This document shows positions 33,535 through 37,000 of a stretch of DNA of 64,000 bases, one piece after another. Each line of letters begins with the position of its first letter. The stretch's first letter is position 1. Origin of the DNA: Saccharibacillus kuerlensis DSM 22868. GTDB taxonomy: Bacteria; Bacillota; Bacilli; Paenibacillales; Paenibacillaceae. The stretch is from NCBI RefSeq assembly GCF_000378145.1, contig NZ_KB899278.1, positions 1-64,000 of the forward strand. The letters are read 5' to 3'. The translations under genes and the position numbers were made by a program. The notes under the pieces are model-generated. The model was not told where the DNA came from, searched no databases, and saw nothing but the letters and a program-made list of their open reading frames with translations.

Positions 33535-34617
33535 TTATCCGATCGTCTCTACCACATTCCCATCGGGGTCGCGCAGCAAAGTTTTGACGATTCGAATGCT
33601 CAAGCTCTTCATCGTATCGAGTTTAAATTCACTTTCCCTTGGTGTCAGACGCCGGGAAAGCTCGGCTGCCGCCTCCGCATTGAGATAGAGCTGAAGCTCT
33701 TCCCTCACTTCGACGATCCGATTTTGCAAGTCCGGAATCATGACCACTTGGGTATTCGGGCCAATTAACGTCAAGTCACGATCATGCATCAGTCTGCCTG
33801 TCAGAATGCGAGCCAGCGACTCCGCCTGCTTGGCTCCAAGCTGAAGCACGTATGAACGCCCCTTCAGCATACTTTTGCGTTCTTCCCAGATCAGACTCTC
33901 GAGGTATAAATGTCCGGTACTCGAGCCTTCCGTCCGCACACTCAGCTCCGCGGCGCTGCGCAGTTCGGAATCAGCAAGCAGCGACTGCCTGTTCAGATCC
34001 GTTACATAGAGCGGCAGACGGTTCTTGGCTAATTCCAAAAAGCTTCGCGTATTCCATACCTTAATCAGATCCAATTCGTCTGCGGTGATCCCGACAACCT
34101 GCACAAATCGGAACTGTCCAAACGGCGAGACTGTACTTTCCAGCTCCGGATCTTCGACAAGAGCAATAGCCGTTATCGGTGTGGCCCGGTCGGATTCGAT
34201 TGGGCCATTCGCATCAAGATGATGGCCCGGGTGCAAGACGTTCCCGCTGTTGAATACATAACGGGCCAGGTTTTGCAGAAAATTGATCGCCCATACCGGC
34301 GGTTCTTCTTCGCTTTCGCAAACCAGTCTGAATGTCAGTTCGAATCCGAAGCCGCTGTATTCCGCATTCTTTGATTCTTTTTCATGCAGCTCCGTGAATC
34401 CGTAAGTTACGTAATGCCAGTGGGGAACAGGTTCTTCACGCTTATAAACGCTGACTCCCTCGAGCGGATCGGGTCCTCCCAACCGGTAGGAAATTAGAGT
34501 CCCATAATGAAACGGCTCGATACCGGCATACAGCCTACTTAACGAATTGTCGATTGCAATCCAGCCCGGCGATTCCGCCTTGTCTTCCGGTTTCTGTACG
34601 TGTTCGTTCTCGCTCAT
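33535..34617 (-). CDS. suppressor-of-fused (SUFU) domain protein
   Basis: A 360-residue cytoplasmic protein. The N-terminal 200 residues match the bacterial SUFU-like domain (HYGTLISYRLGG near residue 37, VPHWHYVTYGF near 64, GFGFELTFRL near 88). The remaining 160 residues are an extra region with a long helical end. Bacterial SUFU proteins are often immunity or partner proteins in toxin systems, but no toxin gene is adjacent here. GAGAGGTGA precedes the ATG. Function not assigned. Confidence 0.78.
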   Translation of the reverse strand: MSENEHVQKPEDKAESPGWIAIDNSLSRLYAGIEPFHYGTLISYRLGGPDPLEGVSVYKREEPVPHWHYVTYGFTELHEKESKNAEYSGFGFELTFRLVCESEEEPPVWAINFLQNLARYVFNSGNVLHPGHHLDANGPIESDRATPITAIALVEDPELESTVSPFGQFRFVQVVGITADELDLIKVWNTRSFLELAKNRLPLYVTDLNRQSLLADSELRSAAELSVRTEGSSTGHLYLESLIWEERKSMLKGRSYVLQLGAKQAESLARILTGRLMHDRDLTLIGPNTQVVMIPDLQNRIVEVREELQLYLNAEAAAELSRRLTPRESEFKLDTMKSLSIRIVKTLLRDPDGNVVETIG

Positions 34618-35045: not shown

Positions 35046-36368
35046 TCAGCCGATCTCTCTGCGTTCCTCCCCATTACGCAGACCCAGCAGACCATTCATT
35101 TGCTCCAACAGATTGCTGCCTCCGCCTAGAGAAATCGTCCCTATCTTTTCACAGATTTTCTCAACGAACTCCAGCTCTTTGAGTCGGTACAGTGTCGCAT
35201 TTTCGTCCATTAACTTCGCCGTATTCAGCAGGCTCCGGGTCGAAGCCGTCTCCTCTCGCCGGGTGATCATGTTGGCTTGGGCTTTCTTCTCGGCCAGCAG
35301 CACCGTATTGAGAATCGCGCGGATCTCGCCCGGCAGAATCACATCTTTGAGTCCGGCATTCAAAAATTCGACCCCATATTCCGTGCCGCTGCGCTTAAGG
35401 CGATCCAGCACAAAGTCACCGATCTCCTGCTTCATGCGCAGCAGATCGTCCAATTTGAGTGTGCCGACATATTCGCGCAGCAGCAGTTGAAGCTGAACGT
35501 ACACCTGTTCTTCAAAGTTTTTGATCTCTGCCGCCTGCAGAGGATCGACAATTCGATATTGACAGACGAAATTCAACCGCAGCGAAATTTTGTCTTCTGT
35601 CAAAATCTCTTGGCCTGTCATATCGAGCTGCTGACGACGCAGATCGAACTTTTTGAGCGTCACCGACGTCGGACCATTCCAGAAAAAGCTTCGTCCCGGC
35701 GCAAGCTGACGCTGCAGCTGATTATCGAAGTAGAGCAGGCCAGTCTCGTGGCTTGCCACTTCGATCATTTGAACATAAGGCAGATTGATCTTTTCTAACA
35801 AAGCACGTCCAATATCCGCTCCAATCTCCGGATTTTGGATATCGGACCGAATGAAGGTATGCTCTCGAGATTCGTTCCAATAGGCGTACCGTCCGGCCGT
35901 CAGCAGGCTTTTGAAACGTCCATTTTCCAGATGCAGCACGTATTCGCTGTCTCCAACCTCGATTATGGTCAGCCGCTTCATCAGCTCGGCATCCTCGGCG
36001 AACAGGCGAACGTCCATGTCCGGTATTCCGTATACATTGAGCCCGCTTCCCACCCAACCGTTCGAAGGGTTATATTCAAACGGATCCGATATTCTTTTGA
36101 ATACCAGTCTTCGAACACTGCTTGACCAATTGAAAAAGCGGTATCTGCCCGGCATAAGGAGGCGCTCGTAGCGGCCACGCTCGAACAACAGCGCGCGTTC
36201 GCCGTCGAGGACTTCGACGGTTCGCAAGCCCGCGCCAAGTTCGAGTATGCCCGGAATTGCGGGATTACCGTTCAGTGTCTCTGAAGGACGGATATCTTTC
36301 CCGGGCATCCCTGGAATTTTACGACCGTGCAGCAGATTTATGTTCGATTGATTTTGATTGTAATTCAT
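35046..36368 (-). CDS. SPFH/Band 7 (slipin-like) protein without membrane anchor
   Basis: A 440-residue protein. Residues 60-200 hold repeated beta-rich segments of the type LLEPGRYxFWN (LMPGRYRFFNW, LTAGRYAYWNE, LAPGRSFFWNG). They are followed by an SPFH core (about 215-390) and a coiled-coil-like tail with AEKKAQANMITRREETA. No transmembrane segment is seen, unlike true slipins. AAGGAGGAAC precedes the ATG at 36368. It is preceded by about 520 bases of hairpin-rich DNA containing a permuted tRNA-like sequence, probably its own transcript leader. Such proteins usually form oligomeric scaffolds; the role here is unknown. Confidence 0.75.
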   Translation of the reverse strand: MNYNQNQSNINLLHGRKIPGMPGKDIRPSETLNGNPAIPGILELGAGLRTVEVLDGERALLFERGRYERLLMPGRYRFFNWSSSVRRLVFKRISDPFEYNPSNGWVGSGLNVYGIPDMDVRLFAEDAELMKRLTIIEVGDSEYVLHLENGRFKSLLTAGRYAYWNESREHTFIRSDIQNPEIGADIGRALLEKINLPYVQMIEVASHETGLLYFDNQLQRQLAPGRSFFWNGPTSVTLKKFDLRRQQLDMTGQEILTEDKISLRLNFVCQYRIVDPLQAAEIKNFEEQVYVQLQLLLREYVGTLKLDDLLRMKQEIGDFVLDRLKRSGTEYGVEFLNAGLKDVILPGEIRAILNTVLLAEKKAQANMITRREETASTRSLLNTAKLMDENATLYRLKELEFVEKICEKIGTISLGGGSNLLEQMNGLLGLRNGEERREIG

Positions 36369-36893
36369 AAGTTTGTTCCTCCTTGGAACCTTTGCGGTGG
36401 AAGTTCGCACACCCTTATGCGCGGAGTCCGGCTTGAGCCGGCATCAGCTGCGCAGGGAAAGCGGGAGACTGACAGAAATGGACGCCGATCCCGACTTCAG
36501 ATCGACATTATCTCCGCTGCTCTTCGCTTCCGAGCCTCAGCTTCAGCCGGCGGGATCCGCCGGAGCTGCAAAGCGCGTTCGGATGCCGGGCCCCATAGAA
36601 GCAGCACCGACGGAACTTCCTTCCCCAAAGATCATGATTTGTATGGCTCCATTAAAAGTGGAGTGCTCTACCAAGAGCTTGCGCCTAAGCAAGTAGGGAT
36701 TCGAACCCAATAATCGCTTTTCCTGTGCGAACGCTTCTTCCGGCATGCCGAAGCGCAGCGCGCCCGGCACCGCCGGACCATATCAATGTCCTGGCCTGAA
36801 GGGGAAGGCGCTCGCGAATCCCTGCTCGGGATCTAAAGCCATTGTCACCTATTCCGTGGACAGGGAACAGGGCAGAAATATGGCGATCCCCTA
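36369..36893 (-). ncRNA. presumed structured leader or ncRNA upstream of the SPFH gene
   Basis: About 520 bases without a credible protein frame, starting just after a possible promoter (TATACT at 36906-36901; best -35 TTGTTC 15 bases upstream, weak). Stems seen by eye: GGGATC/GATCCC plus GCCAT/ATGGC (36828-36890), enclosing CCTGTTCC/GGAATAGG; a tRNA-like part (36647-36710); CCGGCGG/CCGCCGG (36547-36563); CCGGC/GCCGG (36429-36442). It ends at the SPFH ribosome site. It could be a cis-acting leader or an independent RNA. No known RNA class was recognised. Confidence 0.4.
36647..36710 (-). ncRNA. circularly permuted tRNA-like sequence
   Basis: Read on the minus strand, tRNA parts occur in the order T arm, acceptor, D arm, anticodon arm. 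The T arm (36710-36694) has the loop TTCGAAT closed by GGG/CCC. CTTGC and GCAAG (36693-36678) form a capped acceptor-like stem with loop TTAGGC. The D arm is GCTC-TTGGTA-GAGC (36678-36665). The anticodon arm is CTCCA-CTTTTAA-TGGAG (36663-36647), giving anticodon TTT (Lys). The D loop lacks two usual bases and the T stem has one mismatch. A normal tRNA cannot be read in either orientation. A decayed tRNA pair is the main alternative. Confidence 0.55.
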
Positions 36894-36964
36894 TACGCCT
36901 AGTATATTTCGCGCCGTGCCGGAACAATGGCGATTCAATGCATCGCCTTTTCTGCATATACGTA

Positions 36965-37000
36965 AAAAAGCCCCGAAGGAGTTACCCCCGGGGCTTTTAA
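36965..37000 (-). terminator. terminator of recG
   Basis: AAAAGCCCCG and CGGGGCTTTT form the stem, with TTTTTTA on the minus strand. It separates recG from the downstream leader of the SPFH gene. Confidence 0.8.

Follow-up and report, generated by a model that had tools for sequence, protein, structure and literature searches.

On the minus strand of the window, the whole stretch of 64,000 nucleotides that was analysed, parts of a tRNA occur in permuted order between recG, which was recognised by sequence, and the gene for a 440-aa SPFH/band-7 protein. This arrangement raises the question whether the element is a gene for a working tRNA, the remnant of tRNA genes or an RNA structure with a task of its own. 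The following features define the locus.

36964 to 36998, minus strand: terminator-like hairpin with a T run after recG, which separates the element from recG (direct sequence reading)
36647 to 36710, minus strand: permuted tRNA-like module (sequence; covariation in 71 loci; covariance model R1, 89.0 bits, a score that is high by construction as the window's own copy is part of the model)
36378 to 36384, minus strand: Shine-Dalgarno-like AAGGAGG of the SPFH gene (sequence and alignment)
35046 to 36368, minus strand: SPFH/band-7 (slipin-like) protein of 440 aa (Pfam PF01145, 8.3e-21; PDB stomatin chains, best 2e-15)
33535 to 34617, minus strand: SUFU-domain protein, the next gene downstream of SPFH (Pfam PF05076, 3.1e-43); in some relatives RlaP or RtcB is found there

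Read from the sequence, the module consists of a T arm (GGG TTCGAAT CCC, 36708-36696), a capped acceptor-like stem (CTTGC/GCAAG, 36693-36678, with a loop of 6 nt), a D arm (CTC TTGGTA GAG, 36677-36666) and an anticodon arm (CTCCA CTTTTAA TGGAG, 36663-36647), in this order on the minus strand. The T stem comprises 3 bp followed by a T-T mismatch, compared to 4-5 bp in most relatives, and G36678 and C36665 may form a fourth pair of the D stem. The order of the arms is that of the Y RNA YrlA; a UA linker is absent from the window's copy. ARAGORN detected neither a tRNA nor a tmRNA in the whole window, and between positions 35500 and 38000 no match to the Rfam models of tRNA, YrlA, tmRNA or T-box was obtained at an E value of 1. 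A match to sR035 at 0.016 (19.9 bits, gathering score 233) falls on the recG terminator region. The hairpin at 36964-36998, whose loop is longer than the terminator scan allows, was missing from that scan. Folded alone, the 64-mer reached -17.6 kcal/mol (z -1.02), a value that 26 of 200 shuffles equalled. Since this energy is ordinary, the single sequence does not stand out from chance by energy and the proof has to be supplied by comparison.

A BLAST search with a query of 121 nt gave long matches in nine relatives of the same genus and in G053, a genome from a different family of this order. In a plain MAFFT alignment of 11 loci (9 distinct rows), 99.3% of the stem cells paired and five pairs revealed a double-sided change. 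Out of 500 shuffles, none reached four of the five covariation measures, whereas 467 reached the fifth, that of further pair types. When the structure was slid along this alignment, pairing dropped to 32-54%. Covariance model R1 was run against 296 genomes of the order, and 71 of 73 loci aligned to it matched. These 71 comprise the 11 loci from BLAST, 20 further loci from the R1 search and 40 stretches chosen from the match list, for which matches of at least 43 bits were picked together with five of 65-71 nt that scored lower (40.9-42.3 bits). The two unmatched loci (L080 and L081) had been added as SPFH loci and give only an 18-bit match. Fourteen listed R1 matches of at least 43 bits were left out of the 71, three of them (G122, G132, G135) with an adjoining SPFH gene. 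At an E value of 0.001 R1 matches 295 of the 296 genomes, so that this tally is not specific; to judge from their length, matches of 73-88 nt and up to about 42 bits presumably are neighbouring ordinary tRNA genes, the T arm being taken from one and the D and anticodon arms from the next.

For the 71 loci, which give 65 distinct rows, the alignment was made to fit the model and is thus biased towards the structure. Gapped cells were excluded from the count; at one pair they affect as many as 25 of 65 rows, and several come from rows with a misaligned capped stem. Counted in this way, 99.4% of the stem cells are paired, and a double-sided change is seen at 12 of 17 pairs. There were 92 double-change cells, compared to 16.0 in shuffles, all five measures were reached by 0 of 500 shuffles, and double changes occurred in each of the four helices. 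In fuller copies, among them L117 and L097, the T stem and the capped stem comprise 5 bp each, the UA linker known from tRNA is present, the D loop reads AGTGGTA and the anticodon arm pairs perfectly. A clean anticodon arm (5-bp stem, 7-nt loop) is present in 53 of the 71 loci, with U33 in 50 and U at position 34 in 45 of them, while the triplet at the anticodon position varies (ten triplets in the 53 arms; TTT, TCT, TTC, TCA and GTT within the genus). As compensatory changes affect all four stems across families, the sequence comparison indicates that the fold of the module is kept by selection. Thus, the permuted tRNA parts that the original prediction had claimed at these positions are confirmed by both sequence and covariation, since the stems covary in the set of 11 as well as in that of 71 loci. 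Two adjacent ordinary tRNA genes, the arrangement that the same prediction named as speaking against it, were found by ARAGORN at none of 57 SPFH loci; the program made two calls in all, one overlapping the module (L082), the other lying inside the SPFH gene (L121).

In all 71 loci an SPFH homologue is located on the same strand, 156-521 nt downstream of the module (distances to its aligned part); one copy, that of L053, is broken. Within the genus, 11 of 16 genomes contain the SPFH gene, and the element was found in the same 11, ten times by BLAST and once (G013) by R1 with 41.6 bits. The other five showed neither, the only BLAST result being a tRNA-like match of 33 bases in G014. In a sample of 119 genomes of the order, SPFH occurred in 36; among the matches listed, an R1 match of at least 39.9 bits lay beside it in 28 of these and none in the other eight, one of which (G059) has retained the T arm and the capped stem with the rest degraded (29.6 bits). 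In a sample of 348 genomes of the phylum, the SPFH protein was detected in eight at 1e-25. Six of them lie outside the family of the window's strain, and of these loci only G393 matches R1 well (48.6 bits); in L134 a T arm and a capped stem are visible by eye. The phage records searched contained none with this SPFH protein. A ring or cage would be in keeping with the PDB, where several stomatin relatives are deposited as entries of at least 16 chains.

The module itself is the core of a conserved RNA of about 480 nt, which has folded 5' and 3' domains and ends at the ribosome-binding site of SPFH. In three clades the module is flanked by conserved blocks on either side, and the gaps in these alignments have lengths that are not divisible by three. 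The two domains are as follows.

36711 to 36864, minus strand: 5' domain, hairpins including a conserved CGGUGCC...GGCAU hairpin (GCAGUGC...GUAU in relatives); consensus folds of 24, 11 and 15 loci, boundaries approximate
36389 to 36633, minus strand: 3' domain, closed by a long-range helix (5' arm about 36633-36612, 3' arm about 36406-36389); consensus folds in three clades, boundaries approximate

For the 5' hairpins, the consensus fold of 40 of the 71 loci predicts 16 pairs, 7 of which have double changes; in the 3' domain, 17 loci from a single clade have them at 13 of 53 pairs. The long-range helix, which ends just before the Shine-Dalgarno sequence, has a duplex energy of -26.1 kcal/mol in the window. 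For 59 of the 71 loci the median was -28.4 with the arms of the same locus, -23.2 with arms of different loci and -19.2 with shuffled letters; 32 of the 59 beat all 50 shuffles and 41 at least 48 of them. The remaining 12 loci, including that of the window, were left out of this assay as the script missed the start codon. The 482 nt of the window fold with a z value of -2.42, which corresponds to 2 of 100 shuffles being equally good, and in the unconstrained fold the T and D hairpins form, the acceptor-like stem and the anticodon arm do not. At the 3' end of the RNA the terminator scan listed no terminator-like site; it gave one internal site on the minus strand and two in all, compared to 1.3 expected.

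A link to RNA repair is suggested by gene neighbourhoods. SPFH adjoins RtcB or RlaP (Pfam) in 4 of 14 neighbourhoods examined, in the orders RtcB, SPFH, RlaP, RtcB (L137), SPFH, RlaP, RtcB (L139), SPFH, RtcB (L144) and RtcB, SPFH (L149). Nine neighbourhoods contained no member of the RtcB and RlaP clusters within about 5 kb, and in the last one (L148) no SPFH gene was called by the script. The end of an RtcB gene lies right upstream in 9 of the 71 loci, and in the window SPFH is followed by the SUFU gene instead of RtcB or RlaP. The mere presence of RtcB was rejected as a signal of co-occurrence: it is found in 16 of 16 genomes of the genus, with or without SPFH, and therefore does not track the element. 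Near the locus of one relative, L113:3192-3441 matches the Rfam family BsrG above its gathering score (72.2 vs 55 bits).

Transfer RNA-like sequences were also found upstream of SPFH homologues in Citrobacter (34% identity), E. coli, Burkholderia, Photobacterium and Subdoligranulum, where R1 scored 13.6-23.2 bits; the arm order was judged there by eye and, for units in ordinary order, by ARAGORN. In Citrobacter and E. coli a T arm, a capped stem and a degenerate D part can be made out by eye, and the anticodon arm is degenerate. Subdoligranulum has an additional T arm followed by a permuted unit with a capped stem of 7 bp (by eye), Burkholderia a T-arm/acceptor unit followed by one tRNA-like unit in ordinary order (the latter according to ARAGORN). 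In Photobacterium two tandem ordinary-order units precede slipin (L129:4779-4920), and RtcB (Pfam) lies downstream. The order in Citrobacter is RtcR, tRNA-like sequence, slipin and RlaP-like, rtcR (Pfam) being divergent and the nucleotidyltransferase of the RlaP cluster located downstream. An excerpt of PMC7824862 characterises RlaP as a nucleotidyltransferase associated with RNA ligase. Before several of these slipin loci a TGGCAC-type, sigma-54-like promoter was seen by eye. The tRNA-like stretch of E. coli (L126:4480-4810) coincides with no annotated feature in strain WAT, and DNA similar to this slipin locus with a related tRNA-like stretch is present in 1624 of 5426 complete E. coli genomes. 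The comparison suggests that the permuted form may have been derived from a tandem of ordinary-order units, of which Photobacterium may show the ancestral arrangement.

Upstream of the RNA a further conserved sequence was identified.

36865 to 36886, minus strand: 22-nt upstream box (TCGYMATANTTNCRCCMTGTTC, 1 mismatch), present in 59 of 71 loci with at most 2 mismatches

In these 59 loci the box precedes the module by 155-228 nt. In nine of the 12 loci lacking it, an RtcB gene ends directly upstream, and in G195 it stands before the upstream RtcB gene rather than before the RNA. In ten genomes scanned, the box was found at 20 places in nine of them, compared to five for the reversed control. 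Eight places lie before the RNA, one before RtcB (G195) and 11 elsewhere, nine of which were inspected (L151-L159). According to Pfam, genes behind the box encode TROVE proteins (L155, L157), Hen1 and Pnkp ligase (L152), RlaP (L153) and a WYL/WCX regulator (L156); L154 resembles L152, for the RtcB genes of L153 and L155 the assignment is based solely on similarity or position, and the first protein of L151 (G053) had no Pfam match. The second box of the window's own genome (G000:C3:293341-293362, 2 mismatches) precedes a WYL gene that is 88.6% identical to that of L156. Behind the box, YrlA-like modules were detected in G053 (43.0 bits, L151:307-369), G012 (36.9 bits) and, weakly, G009 (26.9 bits), all below the Rfam gathering score. 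Those of G012 and G009, at L157:3102-3210 and L155:3502-3563 on the minus strand, precede Ro60/TROVE genes, and in G053 a possible one follows. RtcB-query matches at box-bearing loci were not counted, the start of the query being wrongly extended so that it runs over the box. Since the box recurs before other RNA-repair genes, it is probably a promoter or operator and not part of the RNA. Being common to SPFH, TROVE, RlaP, RtcB, Pnkp-Hen1 and WYL-regulator genes, it looks like the site of an RNA-repair regulon in Paenibacillales.

Due to the conserved fold and the position directly before an SPFH gene that in some relatives is part of RNA-repair operons, the element most likely serves an RNA-repair system as RNA partner or leader and is not a decayed tRNA. 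With a probability of roughly two thirds, the module is the tRNA-mimicking core of a structured noncoding RNA or 5' leader of about 480 nt that works with SPFH/slipin in a bacterial RNA-repair response, a function that we infer from the context. Upon RNA damage, transcription would be induced through the box. The T loop and D loop might dock as in tRNA and in the similarly permuted YrlA module, and the 5' and 3' domains could bind or organise an oligomer of SPFH. When tRNAs are cut, the tRNA-like core may attract an enzyme that handles tRNA (ligase, RlaP, PNPase or a modification enzyme); SPFH and the RNA would thereby scaffold the repair or decay of cleaved tRNAs, as is thought for Ro60 and Y RNA.

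The main rival is a leader with a solely cis-regulatory task, i.e. a 5' UTR that senses the state of tRNA or the SPFH protein and controls SPFH translation, the RNA having no separate role. The position of the RNA directly upstream of the gene on the same strand (71 of 71 loci), the closing helix of the 3' domain next to the Shine-Dalgarno sequence and the lack of a listed terminator-like site at the end are consistent with such a leader, which is a serious though rather unlikely explanation, as a size of about 480 nt and the complexity of the fold go beyond usual leaders and as Y RNA, which shares the permuted core, acts as the RNA partner of a protein according to an excerpt of PMC8394870. 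That the module is matured into a decoding tRNA, the first option of the original prediction, is extremely improbable. It is true that all arms covary, that U33 is almost invariant in the clean loops and that the Rfam tRNA model reaches its gathering score of 29 in three relatives (L097, 36.3; L093, 34.3; L115, 29.0), and permuted tRNA genes do exist in algae and archaea. However, the acceptor-like stem has only about 5 bp and is capped, the module forms part of a larger conserved RNA, neither ARAGORN nor Rfam makes a call in the window, and the triplet is not conserved even within the genus. The number of triplets and the prevalence of U34 argue against decoding and leave room for a role as bait or sensor.

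In such a role, the anticodon loop would be cut by tRNA-cleaving toxins, and the cut leader would trigger or prime repair. Loops of the U34 type are cut by several anticodon nucleases, and a full anticodon arm, which YrlA does not have, has been kept, with RlaP or RtcB adjoining in some relatives. Nevertheless, this explanation is very unlikely, since Citrobacter and E. coli have a degenerate arm and 18 of the 71 loci one that is not clean; in Salmonella, moreover, YrlA was not cut by the nuclease according to an excerpt of PMC7790460. A decaying relic of two neighbouring tRNA genes, another option of the original prediction, has hardly any probability left. The tandem units before the homologous slipin gene of Photobacterium speak for it, but compensatory change in all four stems across families is the mark of selection for the fold. 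What may hold is the origin from two tRNA units, to which the Photobacterium tandem and the units of Burkholderia point. Hence, the circular permutation, the reality of the structure and the idea of a mimic in a leader have stood, the working tRNA and the decay have not. A bolder combination, conceivable but improbable as a whole, starts from a permuted form that arose from an ordinary-order tandem: the RNA of about 480 nt, docked on a cage of SPFH, would belong to a second, Ro60-independent class of Y-RNA-like RNPs, in which the anticodon arm of the U34 type retained by the permuted core serves as bait or gauge for anticodon nucleases, and cleavage of the RNA or the binding of repair enzymes to it couples tRNA damage to repair by RtcB and RlaP.

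Returning to the tRNA-mimicking RNA that works with SPFH, several known systems can be compared. We know of no role established for slipin proteins in bacterial RNA-repair systems. The abstract of Burroughs and Aravind (2016) reportedly mentions SPFH/band-7 modules with a cognate novel tRNA-like molecule, and these authors are said to have placed a tRNA-like RNA beside the SPFH gene in systems with RtcB, RlaP and RtcR. The element shares the tRNA-like RNA beside an SPFH gene with this description; an operon context with RtcB, RlaP or RtcR is found in 4 of the 14 relatives, in Citrobacter and in Photobacterium, whereas the window has SUFU. Most likely, the RNA, whose tRNA-like part is here permuted and set in a much larger structure, belongs to this kind. 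A literature search, which did not cover the text of the 2016 paper, yielded no description of the RNA, which is no proof of its absence in print. Permuted tRNA genes of algae and archaea, which mature into decoding tRNAs, have the circular permutation in common with the element, but differ from it by its short capped stem and variable triplet. Like tmRNA, the element is a large RNA with a tRNA-like part, but the arm order of tmRNA is different, and neither ARAGORN nor Rfam gave a tmRNA match. With T-box leaders it shares the structured leader tied to tRNA biology, but it mimics tRNA instead of binding it, and Rfam revealed no T-box in the window's element or in 12 relatives scanned.

YrlA (Rfam RF02553, PDB 6CU1) has the same permuted order of T arm, capped acceptor, UA and D arm, and as an excerpt of PMC11472068 describes this Y RNA as circularly permuted relative to tRNA, the assumption that bacteria offer no permuted precedent was too strong. 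According to excerpts, YrlA consists of T, D and acceptor arms and a basal stem that binds a Ro60-like protein, and it has a role with PNPase (PMC8394870); in Salmonella its operon also holds rtcBA (PMC7790460). It is thus the partner of an RNA-binding scaffold protein, encoded in some bacteria within RNA-repair operons (excerpts of PMC11472068, PMC8394870 and PMC7790460). By contrast, in the element an anticodon arm after the D arm replaces the basal stem, the module is embedded in about 480 nt and SPFH takes the place of Ro60 as partner gene. Of 12 relatives scanned, six gave YrlA matches, four with E values below 0.01 (L117, 43.0 bits, E 1e-6; L093, 39.2 bits; L097, 32 bits; L115, 30.4 bits) and two above 0.1. 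The gathering score of 69 bits was reached by none of them, and the other six as well as the window's sequence had no match. The basal stem, which is the Ro60 site, is missing, since the anticodon arm after the D arm is closed and the flanks pair mostly within the separate 5' and 3' domains; a TROVE match was not found in the window's genome. As gathering score, basal stem and link to Ro60 all fail, the element was rejected as a Y RNA proper and is not classed as YrlA despite the likeness of the module. This likeness suggests that the permuted tRNA architecture of Y RNA is not limited to Ro60. The RNA is a defined, alignable candidate for the partner of slipin proteins in bacterial RNA-repair systems, and the simple upstream box, which links it to genes for Ro60, Pnkp-Hen1 and RlaP in Paenibacillales, makes the putative regulon directly testable.
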